Positions 1 to 10,286 of a stretch of DNA of 64,000 nt are shown piece by piece. The notes under the pieces are model-generated. The model saw only the letters and a list, made by a program, of their open reading frames with translations. It did no database searches and was not told the DNA's origin. A program made the position numbers and the translations under genes. Every line of letters begins with the position of its first letter. Within the stretch, counting starts at the first letter, position 1. The stretch covers positions 1 to 64,000 of the forward strand of contig JAISHO010000042.1 in the NCBI GenBank assembly GCA_031262485.1, given 5' to 3'. Source of the DNA: Propionibacteriaceae bacterium. Lineage in GTDB: Bacteria > Actinomycetota > Actinomycetes > Propionibacteriales > Propionibacteriaceae.

Positions 1-867
1 ATTCGTGATGACAAACACCTCTTCCCAGGTTTTCGTTCCGTCGATGCGGATGCGGGTGCGTCTCAGCTTGATGGCCTGTCGGGCGCCGGGGAAGCAGATC
101 TCCCCGTCGGGAAATCGCAGGATGCGGTGATGGCGCCAGGTGAGCAAACCGTGATGCTGGTCGGGTTCACGGTGGAGGCTGGCGTCTTCCCAGGGCAAAT
201 GTTTGACCTGGTCCAAAACGGTCGGCTGGTTTCCTTTCAGCTGAAACACCCACCAGGCTCCTCGGTCGGCGATCAGGGCTGCGGAGGCGGCGTGGGTGTG
301 CAAAGCATCGAGAGTGACCACCACTCCGTCGATGTCGCCGATCTGGTCGAGAAGACCCTCAAGACAAGGGATTTTGTTTGTTTTCGCGGAGACGGAGACC
401 TGGCCGCTGACCGCTCCGGTGTGGGTGGCGGCACCCAGGAGATGGACACGGTCGCAACCATTGGTTTTGGCTCCCCGGACTTCTTTGCCGTCGATCGCGA
501 CAACGATGACAACGCTGGTCGAGGATCGTTCCTGGTCCAGGGCCCAGGATCCGAAAAGGGCGTCGAAGGTGTCGCCGTCGATCAATGCCAAAACGCGTCG
601 GATGGTCTCCATCGACGGGCATTTCAGGTCACGTTCAGCCAGGAGGTCGGTATGGGCGTTCGCCCAGTCAAAGATCGCCTGGATCGAGCGCTGTCCGCAG
701 GCCACCGCCCACAAAGCGATCATGATGATGTCGGAAAGCCGGTAGCGGACGCCACGAGGATCACGCGGGTCAGGAACTTGGTTGGCGACAGCGCGAAGAG
801 AATCAAGATCAACGGCGTTGGGGGCTTGCGGGTGGCGCGAAGTGGGGGTGGTGAGAGAGGATGGCAT
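1..867 (-). CDS. ISAs1-family transposase, C-terminus cut by window edge
   Basis: This gene is absent from the ORF track because its stop lies beyond base 1. Reading the minus strand from the ATG at 865-867 gives 289 open codons. The N-terminus has the ISAs1-associated helical domain (VPDPRDPRGVRYRLSDII). It is followed by a DDE catalytic core with a first Asp in AIDGKEVRGA, a second in VVVTLDALHT, and the KGNQPTV motif typical of the family. The reading stops at TWEEVFVITN, near the expected third acidic residue, so perhaps 80 residues are missing. It should catalyse DNA cut-and-paste of its own element. The + strand ORFs over this stretch are shadows. Family assignment is confident; intactness cannot be judged from this window. 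Confidence 0.88.
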   Translation of the reverse strand, partial: MPSSLTTPTSRHPQAPNAVDLDSLRAVANQVPDPRDPRGVRYRLSDIIMIALWAVACGQRSIQAIFDWANAHTDLLAERDLKCPSMETIRRVLALIDGDTFDALFGSWALDQERSSTSVVIVVAIDGKEVRGAKTNGCDRVHLLGAATHTGAVSGQVSVSAKTNKIPCLEGLLDQIGDIDGVVVTLDALHTHAASAALIADRGAWWVFQLKGNQPTVLDQVKHLPWEDASLHREPDQHHGLLTWRHHRILRFPDGEICFPGARQAIKLRRTRIRIDGTKTWEEVFVITN

Positions 868-3987: not shown

Positions 3988-4004
3988 CGGCGGCTCCGCC
4001 GCCG
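3988..4004 (-). promoter_or_regulatory. Perfect GC hairpin 4 nt after the KAP-CLec stop codon
   Basis: On the minus strand CGGCGGC-GGA-GCCGCCG forms a perfect 7-bp stem, starting 4 nt beyond the stop at 4009-4011. No T-run follows (ACAACTTT), so it is a poor intrinsic terminator. In known diversity-generating retroelements a short GC hairpin a few nucleotides past the variable repeat promotes retrohoming. The position here fits that role, but this is inference. Confidence 0.55.
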
Positions 4005-4008
4005 GGGA

Positions 4009-6189
4009 TTAAACATTCAACCACAAAGCGGGGCGCACGCCGCCCGACGCGGACGAGACGTGCGTGGAGGCGTCGACGAGCACGAGGCCGACGGCGAAGA
4101 CGAAGGAGGCACCGCCCGGGTTGCGCCCCGGGGAACGCAACCACCACCACGATTTGTTATTGTCTTCGGTAAGAGCAATTAATTGACCACTACGAAAATC
4201 TTGTCTTCCGATTGTGCCCCAATTCGGTTTCTGTTGTCCGGCCAGATATCGCATCATTTCCTCCAGGCTCAACAGAAAGGCACGATCACTTGTCGCACGG
4301 CCTCCCGGCGTTCCGAAGAACGGATTATCCGGATTCTCAACCGGGCCCTCCTCCACCTGTTCCCACATCGGTCGACCTAAAGACGCCATGAACTGACCGT
4401 TGAGCCAGCGGCGCAGATCGCATGTCTCCCAAGTCACATCGACCTGTTCTCTGTTATAGGGCCCTTTTCCGACGATGCGATCGGAAAGGAGGAGTGCGCG
4501 TCCGTGGCCTTCTTCCGGTCCCACCAACACCCGCCACTCGTAGCCGCTGAGCGAGACTGATTTCGCTCCATATCTGATCAATCTCTGTTGCTCGGCGACA
4601 TTCTCGGCAGAGGAGGGGGTACGCTCTTCGAACTCGACCAGATCCAAGGCGCTTCCACTTGAACGAGGGATCCGCGATGAGAACGACTCCGCCGAATCAA
4701 CCAGCGGTGCCGCACCGGAGGAACCCGCAAGTTTGAAATGCGTCTCAGCCGCCTGCCCACTCACGTTCAGACCCACACGTCGGACCTCCTGGAGAAACCC
4801 ATCTCCTCTCCCGCCGAAAATTCCGTCGATATCGTCTCGACGTAAGTCTACTTTTGTTGGATCGTCGGGGTCTTTCTGTGGACCGTTGAGCAGGTATGCC
4901 AAGCGCTCGGCTCTCTTGTCATGGTTGCTCCGCAATCCGGCGTAGACATCTCGGTAACACGTCTTCATAGCAGCGAGGACAGCCGCGACCCTCGGATCGT
5001 ATCCTTCGAGCCTGTTGGGAAAATCATACTTAACGGGAGTCTCATGTTGAATAGGTGCTGATTGCCCCATCGCGACCGCGTGGTCGATGACGAACGTGTT
5101 GATCGTGCGGATCATCAACCGCGTCGTGGCGTCGACCTCAGAATCCTCAAAGGCGGCCCGCCACATGGGCACGATAACTTCGATTTCCTCGTCGGTAAGC
5201 GTCGGAATGTCGGGGAATCGATTGGCCGCGTCGCAGAGCATTTTCCGAATGAATGTCTCTTTCTTACCACTCGCGACCAAGGGCAAGTCGAAAGCCACTT
5301 GCACCATCTTTTCCAGATAATGCTCCGCGATCCCGAGATTTTTGTATTCCTTCACCTGATCAATGGCCTGGACCACCGCTTGCGGATCGATGGCCAGCAT
5401 GAAGACACATTTCGGGTGACACATGTACAGCTTGATTTTCTCCAGCAGATCGACGATGCGCTCCGGCAGACACCTGTCAAGATCATCGATGAAGAACACA
5501 ATCTTTCGGCCGCCAGCCAGGGAGTCCAAGGCGTCCTTGAACAGAGCCTGAAGCTTGACCTGGTCTTCTTGGACGCGCATGCGAGCCTGAAGCTGATCAT
5601 GACGATTCCTCTGCCATGCCTGGCTGATCGCGTTACCGTCCAGTTTGAGCTCGGCTGCGGGGTCAAGGCCACTGAATACAACACTAGGTGTCAACACATC
5701 GGCGGCAGTCCACAGAAGGGCAGCCGTGACCTCCTTGACACGATGAGCGATCTCATTCCAGTTCATGGCTCCCGAGCTTCGCCGCACTTCCTGCGCCGTT
5801 TGGAGCATCGCGACAACGGGATTGACGTCGAACTGGTGCTCCCACAAGTCGAACCAGACCGTATAGAAATCATCGTCAGCATCGACCCTCTGTTTGACGT
5901 TATGCAGCAGGTGAGTCTTCCCCTCACCCCACGACCCGTACACAGCGGCGGTGAAAGGGGGCTCGACCGCGCCAATGATCCCAGCGATTTGTTGCGCCAA
6001 CTCATTCCGCCCCAGCCGGTCCTCACGCAACGCACCATCTTTCTTGAAAACCTGATCGTTAAGCGGGCGAACAACCGCAGCTTTGGCTTTACTGGGAGCG
6101 CCCTCCACGGACTGCTCGGATCGACGATCGAGTTCTGTCGACGTGCTCATGACATCACCACCATCCCGGGAACCCACCTCATTCATCAC
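4009..6189 (-). CDS. KAP P-loop NTPase fused to a C-type-lectin-like (DUF6273-like) domain
   Basis: A 726-residue protein. The N-terminal KAP-family NTPase has Walker A GSWGEGKT (about 85-92) and the signature Walker B VFFIDDLDRC (about 231-240). The usual pair of transmembrane helices inside KAP domains is not obvious. From about residue 530 to the end lies a DUF6273/CLec-type module (TWETCDLRRWLN, WWWLRSPG at 681-688, GVRPALWLNV at the end). KAP NTPases are linked to membrane-associated assemblies and to phage defence; CLec domains of this shape are common ligand-binding scaffolds of DGRs. The gene is visibly lower in GC than its neighbours, suggesting transfer, except for its GC-rich last 129 coding bases. 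An internal ATG (residue 14, base 6150) with GGTGGTG upstream is an alternative start. The biological role is unknown; a conflict or recognition ATPase is the best guess. Confidence 0.85.
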   Translation of the reverse strand: MMNEVGSRDGGDVMSTSTELDRRSEQSVEGAPSKAKAAVVRPLNDQVFKKDGALREDRLGRNELAQQIAGIIGAVEPPFTAAVYGSWGEGKTHLLHNVKQRVDADDDFYTVWFDLWEHQFDVNPVVAMLQTAQEVRRSSGAMNWNEIAHRVKEVTAALLWTAADVLTPSVVFSGLDPAAELKLDGNAISQAWQRNRHDQLQARMRVQEDQVKLQALFKDALDSLAGGRKIVFFIDDLDRCLPERIVDLLEKIKLYMCHPKCVFMLAIDPQAVVQAIDQVKEYKNLGIAEHYLEKMVQVAFDLPLVASGKKETFIRKMLCDAANRFPDIPTLTDEEIEVIVPMWRAAFEDSEVDATTRLMIRTINTFVIDHAVAMGQSAPIQHETPVKYDFPNRLEGYDPRVAAVLAAMKTCYRDVYAGLRSNHDKRAERLAYLLNGPQKDPDDPTKVDLRRDDIDGIFGGRGDGFLQEVRRVGLNVSGQAAETHFKLAGSSGAAPLVDSAESFSSRIPRSSGSALDLVEFEERTPSSAENVAEQQRLIRYGAKSVSLSGYEWRVLVGPEEGHGRALLLSDRIVGKGPYNREQVDVTWETCDLRRWLNGQFMASLGRPMWEQVEEGPVENPDNPFFGTPGGRATSDRAFLLSLEEMMRYLAGQQKPNWGTIGRQDFRSGQLIALTEDNNKSWWWLRSPGRNPGGASFVFAVGLVLVDASTHVSSASGGVRPALWLNV
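4021..4149 (-). other. Candidate DGR variable region in the CLec domain
   Basis: These 43 codons (WWW...GVRPALW) contain only 5 adenines in 129 coding-strand bases. Of the 27 codons between the conserved WWWLRSPG and GGVRPALW blocks, 20 are NNC. The codons just upstream are AT-richer (CAA TTA ATT GCT CTT...), so the boundary is sharp. Adenine loss at AAC-derived codons is the footprint expected of adenine-specific DGR mutagenesis. No matching template repeat was recognised in this window. Confidence 0.5.
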
Positions 6190-7413: not shown

Positions 7414-8235
7414 CTATCCGAGGCACTTCAGAGCGAATTGGTCGATGAGCCGAGCCAATGTGAAGGGTCGGAAGTAGTGGGCGTTGTGCCCGACAGCGGA
7501 GATCGTGACCCGTTCGACGTGCTTGAGACGACCGGCCAGTTCGTCAATCCACGCGGCATGTCGGGGCGGACTCATCGCCCCACCGATGAAGCCGACCGGC
7601 GCCGTGATGGTGAAGAACACGGCACGTCGATCGCCCCGAGCCTCAATGCCCGCCCCGTCGAAGAGAACCAGCCCCTCGACGAGACGACGGTAGTGCGGCC
7701 AGATCAGGCAACTGCTGAACAACCAGGTGTAAAGCGAAGAGTTGCCGATGTTGGCGCGGAAGAACGTCCGCCACGCCTCGTCCACGTGACCGGATAAGAA
7801 AGCATCTTTCGCCGCCTGCGTGGGAACGGGGTCGAGGGCCGGCGCAAGGCACGGCTCGTAGAGAATCCCGCCGGAGAACCGGCCCGGCATCGCCGCCAAA
7901 GCCTCCAGCGCGAGGTTGCCGCCAGAGGAGTGACCCACGATGATCGGTTCCCCAGGCACAGCGTCCACGATGGCTTCGATGTCGGACACCTGTGCCGCCA
8001 CCGACCGATCGGCGCCATCAGGAAGGTCCGTGCGGTAAGGCCGCCGACAGAACCGGAGAACTCGGTATTTCCTGGCCAGAAGCCTCGCCACTGCGGCATA
8101 CGACGACCCATCGTCGAAACCCTCGTGGCAGATGAGGATGACCGGGCCCGAACCCTGCTCCACGACGCGCGTGACCACCCCATCGGAGGCGGCCACCGAG
8201 AACATGCGTCCACCTCTATTCACGGGGAAGTTCAC
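7414..8235 (-). CDS. Alpha/beta hydrolase
   Basis: A 273-residue hydrolase of the alpha/beta fold with nucleophile elbow GHSSGG (about residues 100-105), an early oxyanion segment ILICHEGFDDGSS, and a C-terminal His in AVGHNAHYF. The acid is likely in the strand before IEARGD. No signal peptide is seen, so it is probably cytosolic. The substrate cannot be predicted; small esters or lactones are typical. It shares a 4-bp ATGA overlap with the upstream GNAT gene, so the two form a small operon. Confidence 0.82.
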   Translation of the reverse strand: MNFPVNRGGRMFSVAASDGVVTRVVEQGSGPVILICHEGFDDGSSYAAVARLLARKYRVLRFCRRPYRTDLPDGADRSVAAQVSDIEAIVDAVPGEPIIVGHSSGGNLALEALAAMPGRFSGGILYEPCLAPALDPVPTQAAKDAFLSGHVDEAWRTFFRANIGNSSLYTWLFSSCLIWPHYRRLVEGLVLFDGAGIEARGDRRAVFFTITAPVGFIGGAMSPPRHAAWIDELAGRLKHVERVTISAVGHNAHYFRPFTLARLIDQFALKCLG

Positions 8236-8660
8236 GACGACACCGCTCCGTCAAGACGTCGACCGAGAACGACGGTGTCCTGGCGCTCGTAACCAAGCGC
8301 GTCATAGAAACCAAGAACGCTCTCATTGCTGGTTCTGACCATGAGCTGAATCTTCGGGACGCCCTGTGCAACGACCCAGTGCTCACAGGCTTCCATGAGC
8401 GCACGGCCCCACCCAGCGGACCGCAGACGGGGCGCGACAGCGAGATAGTAAACCCACCCCCGATGGCCGTCGTGCCCGACCATCGCCGTGCCCACCACTG
8501 CGCCGTCGTCGTCGCGCAACCCGAGCACGGTCGACGACGGTCCATTGATCGCACGCGTGAAATCGGCGACCGGGTCGTTCCACGGCCGCGTCAGCCCGAC
8601 TTTGTCCCATAGGGCAACGGCATCTGCGCAGTCACCAGCGGTGAGTTCGATGAGTTCCAC
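8232..8660 (-). CDS. ypeA: GNAT acetyltransferase, YpeA type
   Basis: About 142 residues of a single GNAT domain. The block GLTRPWNDPVADFTRAI, the acetyl-CoA loop (RLRSAGWGRALMEACE) and the closing YERQDTVVLGRRL match the YpeA family very closely. It should transfer acetyl from acetyl-CoA to an amine; the substrate is unknown. The track start at 8678 is a TTG; the GTG at 8660 (VELIELTAGD) aligns better with family N-termini. It is the upstream partner of the hydrolase gene. A hairpin lies in the gap before the alpha-galactosidase gene. Confidence 0.82.
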   Translation of the reverse strand: MELIELTAGDCADAVALWDKVGLTRPWNDPVADFTRAINGPSSTVLGLRDDDGAVVGTAMVGHDGHRGWVYYLAVAPRLRSAGWGRALMEACEHWVVAQGVPKIQLMVRTSNESVLGFYDALGYERQDTVVLGRRLDGAVSS

Positions 8661-8723
8661 ACCCCAAGGCTTGCACAAAAGCAGCGGGACGTCGCCAGGC
8701 AGATCGCATACGTATGGATATTT

Positions 8724-8741
8724 CGATCAGTCGGCTGATCG
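8724..8741. terminator. Inverted repeat between alpha-galactosidase and GNAT genes
   Basis: CGATCAG-TCGG-CTGATCG forms a perfect 7-bp stem with a 4-nt loop, flanked by T/A runs (GTTTT on +). It sits between the end of the alpha-galactosidase operon and the ypeA promoter side, so it may insulate the two. Confidence 0.4.
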
Positions 8742-8757
8742 TTTTATCCAAGAATGC

Positions 8758-8791
8758 AGTGACGCAAGGATGGCTTCAGCGCCACGTCACT
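8758..8791 (-). terminator. Stem-loop just past the alpha-galactosidase stop
   Basis: AGTGACG (8758-8764) pairs with CGTCACT (8785-8791), and an inner TGGC/GCCA stem extends it. It starts about 5 bp after the alpha-galactosidase stop on the minus strand. It has no clean T-run in that direction, so it may be a 3'-end stabilising structure rather than a strong terminator. Confidence 0.4.
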
Positions 8792-8795
8792 TTTC

Positions 8796-10286
8796 TCATT
8801 TGACGAGCAAGGCCTCCATCTCTGCCCGTCCGGCGTGCAGCAGAGGAGCAAAATCTACGTTCCGATCATCAATCTGGTAACGGTAACGTCCCAGTCTGGT
8901 GACTTGTGGGGTAGCTGACAGGAAGGCGCGCAACTGGTCCTGCTCGGTCGGATCAAGCCAAGAAATGGGGTCTGATGTGGAAGAGAAACCGCAAATCATG
9001 GCCATGTCGCGCAAGGCTTGGGATGAACGTTCATCGAGCAAGGAGCGCCGAGAACGGAAGAAGACCACGTCCGGATCAGGGATGAACCAGTGCCTCATCC
9101 AGGTGCGTGCGGCACTGTTCGCGAGGCTGTTCAGCGCACCTGCGCCACTCGGATCTCGATCACGTTCCGTGTTATCCCAATACGGTGCGACGTCTGGTCC
9201 AACGCGGGCGGCGTCGACGATGCCAACGGAGGCGAGCATCGGCACGCCACTACCCAGCAGGAAACAATCGGGGCCGGTGGCCTCGCGGATCAGGCTGATC
9301 GCTTCACGGTAAACCTGTTCACGGGGTAGATCCTGGCTTCGGACACCAGGCAATGCCCCGGCATACATGAAATCCAGTTTGAAATAGTCGAATCCGTCAT
9401 CGACGAGTCCGGTGAAGAGATGATGCAGATGGTCTTTCACCGGGCTGAGGGTGGTGTCAAGGGCGTAATAATGGGAATCCCAGTTGTAGCCGGCGATCAA
9501 CGGTTCGCCGGAGGCGTCTTTGACTAGCCAATCAGGGTGTTCGGCGACCGTCTGAGAGCCTGGGAGGCAGATGAACGGAGAGAGCCACAGGCCAGCGCGC
9601 ATGTGATGGGCACGTATCTGATCGGCCATCGCCCGCATCCCAGATTTGAAACCTGCGTTCGCTGTCCAATCGCCGACGATCTGCTCCCAGCCGTCGTCGA
9701 TTTGGAACACGTCGAATCCGTATCCGTCTAGTTCGTCGAGGAAGCCGCTGATTAACTGTTCGTCGATGTTCTCGTAACAGGAATACCACGTGGAAAATAC
9801 CGGACCACACCGGTTCGGAGACGGATGGAATCGTTCAGCGACGAGTTCGGCATAACGGCCGAATATCGCGGTCTCTTCTCCGATTCCAAGGAACCAGGTG
9901 GCGTCGGGTGTCAGGCTGCGCCCCCACATGGTGGTGGTATCAGCACCGACGAGCGGTTCTCCAAGTTCGAGTGCGCCAAGTAAGAGGACCTGGCCATCGT
10001 CGAAAGCTAGGGCGCCAACAGTGCTGCCTTGGTGGTGTTCTGGGTCATCGGTCGCGCTATCATCGGCGGTGAGGAGGCGGTGCGGATTTCCGTAAATGCG
10101 CAAAGGCTCATCGTCAAGTTTGCGCCAGCCGCTCGGCGACCAGGAGTTCCAGCCCTCGCGATAAAACTCACAGGCCCCATAGTTGTGGGTGATGATGATG
10201 TCCGTGCCGTGGAGCAGCCAGCCGCCTTCGCACGGTTCGGCGGTATTGACGTTGAGACCCAGGCCATTCGGGAAAGTGATAGTCAT
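8796..10286 (-). CDS. Alpha-galactosidase, GH36 type
   Basis: A 496-residue retaining glycoside hydrolase releasing terminal alpha-galactose from melibiose, raffinose-type sugars or galactolipids. The N-terminal beta-rich region is followed by a TIM barrel with FQIDDGWE, the LWLSPF strand, and the nucleophile Asp in YFKLDFMYAG. The acid/base is expected in the ARVGPDVAPYW region. No signal peptide is present, so it hydrolyses imported sugar in the cytoplasm. The ATG at 10286 has AAAGAGGA upstream; the track start at 10340 lies inside the intergenic stem-loop. It is the last gene of the permease-permease-binding protein operon, and a hairpin between it and the binding protein probably lowers its expression. 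Confidence 0.88.
   Translation of the reverse strand: MTITFPNGLGLNVNTAEPCEGGWLLHGTDIIITHNYGACEFYREGWNSWSPSGWRKLDDEPLRIYGNPHRLLTADDSATDDPEHHQGSTVGALAFDDGQVLLLGALELGEPLVGADTTTMWGRSLTPDATWFLGIGEETAIFGRYAELVAERFHPSPNRCGPVFSTWYSCYENIDEQLISGFLDELDGYGFDVFQIDDGWEQIVGDWTANAGFKSGMRAMADQIRAHHMRAGLWLSPFICLPGSQTVAEHPDWLVKDASGEPLIAGYNWDSHYYALDTTLSPVKDHLHHLFTGLVDDGFDYFKLDFMYAGALPGVRSQDLPREQVYREAISLIREATGPDCFLLGSGVPMLASVGIVDAARVGPDVAPYWDNTERDRDPSGAGALNSLANSAARTWMRHWFIPDPDVVFFRSRRSLLDERSSQALRDMAMICGFSSTSDPISWLDPTEQDQLRAFLSATPQVTRLGRYRYQIDDRNVDFAPLLHAGRAEMEALLVK

Follow-up and report, generated by a model that had tools for sequence, protein, structure and literature searches.

Does a diversity-generating retroelement (DGR) vary the C-terminal end of a KAP P-loop NTPase encoded in this Propionibacteriaceae genome? 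An earlier note, made from the letters of the window alone (the window being the whole stretch analysed, bases 1-64000 of contig C25), had proposed that it does, pointing to an A-poor, NNC-rich tract between two conserved blocks. We followed up the locus in the whole genome (2.84 Mb, 49 contigs, 95% complete) and in related genomes, and conclude that the gene is probably a DGR target, remote or orphan, built on a KAP NTPase.

The motifs singled out in the note, Walker A GSWGEGKT, IDDLDRC, WWWLRSPG and GGVRPALWLNV, are all present in ORF 6189..4009(-). Pfam search bears out its description as a KAP NTPase with a DUF6273-like end, with KAP_NTPase (PF07693) matching residues 61-368 at E=2e-30 and DUF6273 matching residues 563-725 at E=3e-25. 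Walker A and Walker B both lie within the PF07693 domain, which identifies the ORF as a KAP P-loop NTPase, and the 726-aa protein has no recognisable effector domain. The features of the locus are as follows.

4009..6189 (-), KAP NTPase-DUF6273 protein, 726 aa, the proposed DGR target (ORF and Pfam)
5086..6009 (-), KAP P-loop NTPase domain, residues 61-368 (Pfam PF07693; best defence-library matches PDC-S20, QatA, PifA)
5914..5937 (-), Walker A GSWGEGKT
5470..5490 (-), Walker B/KAP motif IDDLDRC
4015..4503 (-), DUF6273 domain, residues 563-725 (Pfam; AlphaFold2 pLDDT 84)
4126..4149 (-), constant block WWWLRSPG on the 5' side of the variable region, kept in the TRs and VRs of relatives
4045..4125 (-), hypervariable segment of 27 codons, 20 of them NNC, A-depleted; equivalent of the Asn-rich stretch in related templates
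4021..4044 (-), constant 3' block GGVRPALW, IMH-like by position
3988..4004 (-), hairpin CGGCGGC(GGA)GCCGCCG just past the stop codon, by position and form a DGR target-recognition hairpin

In the model of the DUF6273 domain (mean pLDDT 84), the variable segment is located in the last strands and loops and lies below the core in confidence; the model of the full-length protein reached a pLDDT of only 32, too low to be of use. A fold search with the domain model gave an IgA protease, part of which resembles DUF6273, as the sole significant PDB match, the other significant matches being phage DUF6273 proteins. Others have reported DUF6273 as CLec-like (PMC10743442), and the window's domain may share that fold.

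The codon counts behind the proposal, 20 of 27 codons NNC and 5 of 129 bases A, were both reproduced. We compared them with 74 ORFs of the same genome (32,203 codons), in which 44% of codons are NNC and 17% of bases are A. Because the genome is already so rich in NNC, and 1138 of 30,279 stretches of 27 codons contain at least 20 such codons, NNC richness alone is not rare. At least 20 NNC codons combined with at most 5 A were found in only 20 of the 30,279 stretches, 11 of them inside the KAP gene, and at most 5 A per 43 codons in 4 of 29,095, with 3 of the 4 again inside this gene. The joint A-poor and NNC-rich pattern of the tract is nearly unique in the genome's ~32,000 codons. Within the gene, the NNC share is 73% in the tract versus 13-37% in the 30-codon blocks directly upstream, and the NNY fraction is 0.79 in the VR versus 0.46 in the upstream part of its DUF6273 domain. 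This NNY contrast is common to most VRs of the family and absent from two DUF6273 genes, that of contig C49 in the same genome and that of locus L032 in the related genome G019. With 5 A in 81 bases, the KAP VR is poorer in A than four proven VRs (11-16 A per 78-99 bases).

These counts bear on the reading in which the gene was never a DGR target, the tract resulting from codon bias and from a binding loop that evolves fast by ordinary means, and the hairpin being a transcription terminator. The genome-wide preference for NNC suits this reading, since stretches with at least 20 NNC codons are common enough when taken alone, and so does the failure to find a template described below. However, the nearly unique joint pattern maps to the interval that the two constant blocks enclose, the same segment of DUF6273 is A-mutated in four genomes, and the hairpin has no T-run downstream and belongs to a form found only after DUF6273 genes. 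We therefore regard this reading as very improbable.

In this lineage DGRs act on DUF6273, as seen in four TR/VR pairs, one from the same genome and three from related genomes, in which 63 of 64 mismatches fall at template A. Mismatches at template A and at other bases number 17/1 for contig C43 of the same genome, 17/0 for G009 (VR on C112, TR on C43), 20/0 for C83 of G015 (21/3 over a longer stretch) and 9/0 for C41 of G019 (10/0 over a longer stretch), with hypergeometric P values for the A-specificity from 2e-8 to 8e-15. Near the 3' end, three of the four pairs have GCA in the template and GCT in the VR, a difference such as one would expect to see between IMH* and IMH. Two more genes, on C104 of G015 (23 A and 9 other differences from its template) and on C10 of G009 (22 A and 8 other), look like remote targets, slightly drifted or differing at the flanks. 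A one-gap alignment of the KAP VR to the G015 template leaves 13 of 17 constant columns identical and none of the 13 Asn columns. The target on C41 of G019 (L075:11362-14373 (-)) is an Hsp70-protein kinase-DUF6273 protein adjoined by Avd, TR and RT, and its TR/VR differences are at A only.

The earlier note saw no RT, Avd or template in the window and suggested a genome-wide search for a DGR-type RT. The former observation is not contradicted, and the RVT_1 search found two intact DGR RTs elsewhere in the genome, both with LGNQxSQ and YMDD. One Avd and one TR are also present there. RT1 belongs to a complete DGR with Avd and TR/VR on contig C43 (L023:8121-13942 (-)), laid out as follows.

L023:13942..10337 (-), DGR target, NNH6-nucleoside phosphorylase-NACHT-DUF6273 protein
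10252..9851, Avd
from 9773, start of the TR
9233..8121, RT1

The C43 Avd matches the bAvd and Avd families with scores under their curated cut-offs, and no further Avd was found in the genome. RT2 shares 53-54% identity with the four other DGR RTs, which adjoin TRs, and LGNQxSQ and YMDD are common to all. Its best match among solved structures is 8ub7, which we take to be the BPP-1 DGR RT (4.6e-38, versus 1.5e-13 for a group II intron RT). RT2 begins about 130 bp into contig C13, and relatives keep Avd and TR on that side, so its Avd/TR side is unassembled. The ends of C25 and C13 could be joined in compatible orientation, yet C25 starts inside an ORF resembling an IS transposase (window 1-867 (-)), which is likely why the contig breaks there. 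A third DUF6273 protein of the genome, NNH6-NACHT-DUF6273 on C49 (L033:8115-11132 (-)), has neither the DGR codon signature nor the hairpin.

The template that the note expected to match 4021-4149 did not turn up. A search of the whole 95%-complete assembly for any 59-mer identical, apart from A positions, to the 3' part of the KAP VR, with at most 3 further mismatches, returned the KAP gene alone, and the same kind of search of G019 with the VR of its KAP orthologue likewise returned that gene alone. TR1 of C43 was rejected as the KAP template, as its mismatches number 28 at A and 36 at other bases. When the 3' constant block was searched for across the genus, only known VRs and the G015 template came up, and BLAST with the KAP VR gave, besides itself, only short chance matches. 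Since the template side of RT2 is unassembled, this absence is not final. Because no TR pairs with it, the KAP gene is a probable rather than a proven DGR target, and for the same reason we infer, rather than observe, that its VR is actively diversified; judging from the sequence features, current diversification is likely.

With no template for either orthologue, the KAP VRs of the window and of G019 could both be frozen relics, DGR-derived in the past but since left without a template, in a domain that has become fixed and changes at a slow pace. No matching TR was found for several of the DUF6273 genes of these genomes, and the two genes devoid of the NNY signature, on C49 and at L032, are what dead targets should look like. 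But the KAP VR retains its signature, both full-length KAP genes still have an intact hairpin, and the template side of RT2 is missing from the assembly. A relic seems rather unlikely to us, though clearly less so than a tract that was never DGR-made, and we continue to prefer a DGR target that is still varied.

The hairpin of the KAP gene has a 7-bp stem and a 3-nt loop and begins 4 nt past the stop codon; it is similar to GGCGGCGC(TTC)GCGCCGCC of the C43 target. Among 193 ORFs of 17 stretches, hairpins with a stem of at least 7, a loop of 3-5 nt and a distance of at most 30 nt from the stop codon were present in 5, namely the KAP gene, the C43 target, the G015 genes on C83 and C104, and the G019 KAP gene. 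All five are DUF6273 genes, and both full-length KAP genes are among them. By a hand estimate, the chance of hairpins falling on DUF6273 genes only is about 1e-5, with ~20 DUF6273 ORFs in the set, a value that serves as a guide only because the ORFs are related. As a family-wide marker of the NNY signature the hairpin showed no correlation, being missing from many NNY-rich VRs of G009. In BPP-1-type DGRs, stems of 7-10 bp with 4-nt GRNA loops lie 4-34 bp past the VR (Guo et al., PMC3240598). The systems described here resemble BPP-1 in RT, Avd, A-only mutation between TR and VR and a GC-rich hairpin after the VR, whereas their loops are mostly of 3 nt (GGA, GAA, TTC, TCC) with GAAA in G019 as the exception, and their targets are cellular NTPases. 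The four 3-nt loops can each be read as GRA on one or the other strand, a shortened form of GRNA. On C62 of G009 (L071:1000-18100 (-)), ten DUF6273 segments follow one another on one strand over ~18 kb, nearly all without a hairpin and with no matching TR in the stretches read, each with its own NNY-rich hypervariable stretch.

The KAP orthologue of G019 (MAG WRET01000028, Micrococcales bacterium Lab288P4bin104, which we take to be a termite-gut bin) is 43-45% identical; the next gene after it, on the opposite strand, is AbiD/Abi_2. Our survey of 199 genomes of the family gave a 1e-20 match in 5. For the KAP part at 1e-20, G015 alone matched beyond the window gene, and its contig ends 19 bp past the match, ahead of the DUF6273 part. 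The KAP-DUF6273 fusion was not found in viral contigs, plasmids or phages, and no plasmid or phage record covered 80% of the protein.

Among defence models, the KAP part matches PDC-S20, QatA and PifA, KAP ATPases of anti-phage systems, at 1e-34 (PDC-S20) to 1e-20. The protein shares the KAP domain with them, whereas its C-terminal half is different. With 99 bits versus a curated cut-off of 600 and a match over the NTPase part only, it falls outside QatA, and the two upstream genes tested matched no Qat partners. DGR-diversified NTPases have been proposed as antigen sensors, with KAP NTPases named among the target types (Doré et al. 2024, PMC10907252), and KAP ATPases have been named as stand-ins for STAND NTPases in such systems (PMC8195603). 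The view in the note that a KAP carrier would be unusual is in part overtaken by this work, and the KAP-DUF6273 protein adds a member to a kind already described (Doré 2024). Like the clade 5D sensors of Doré 2024, it would combine an NTPase core with a C-terminal DGR-variable domain in a setting of several loci and remote targets per genome. Unlike them, the variable domain is DUF6273, the host lineage is actinobacterial with a termite-gut relative, and no template was found for the KAP gene.

By analogy with these systems, the DUF6273 end would serve to bind a molecule of the invader, with the KAP ATPase relaying the signal, and the protein is probably an intracellular defence sensor. In this mechanism, a KAP-family ATPase, probably cytoplasmic, would carry at its C terminus a ligand-binding sensor shaped by a DGR. 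An RT elsewhere in the genome, most likely RT2 at the start of C13, would make error-prone copies of an A-rich template, the errors arising at A, and this cDNA would replace the last ~130 bp of the KAP gene, steered by the constant blocks and the post-stop hairpin. The resulting variation from cell to cell may enable the ATPase to sense a range of invader molecules and set off a defence. The DGR-diversified domain put forward in the note is supported in part, by the RTs, the four TR/VR pairs, the codon signature, the hairpin and the related targets on defence-tied NTPases, and lacks a fitting template. As a whole, a DGR-shaped DUF6273 sensor on a KAP ATPase, served by RT2 and varied for invader detection, is the best explanation, to which we give a probability of roughly two in three.

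A broader and more tentative suggestion, somewhat short of an even chance in our estimation, is that this actinobacterium keeps a set of intracellular defence sensors built around a mutable DUF6273, which sits on unrelated engines (KAP ATPase, PNP-NACHT and, in a relative, Hsp70-protein kinase) and is varied by two DGRs, both in cis and in trans, so that a QatA/PifA-like ATPase would gain an adaptive recognition surface. Should the KAP gene prove to be a live target, a small-genome actinobacterium would possess a bacterial defence ATPase whose receptor is re-mutated on demand. Since DUF6273 occurs on different engines, swaps could show directly whether DGRs give bacterial immunity adaptive sensors, which has so far only been proposed.

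The DUF6273 DGR targets of gut phages (tentaclins, Faecalibacterium prophages; PMC10743442, PMC11792537) share the Pfam domain and a VR at its C-terminal end with the proteins described here; they are encoded by phages and have been proposed to act in receptor binding, whereas here the domain is fused to cellular NTPases. Three viral contigs (L080, L081 and L082) also encode related DGR-like RTs near ORFs with another variable-looking C terminus, of the form WWLR[ST]P...GVRP.
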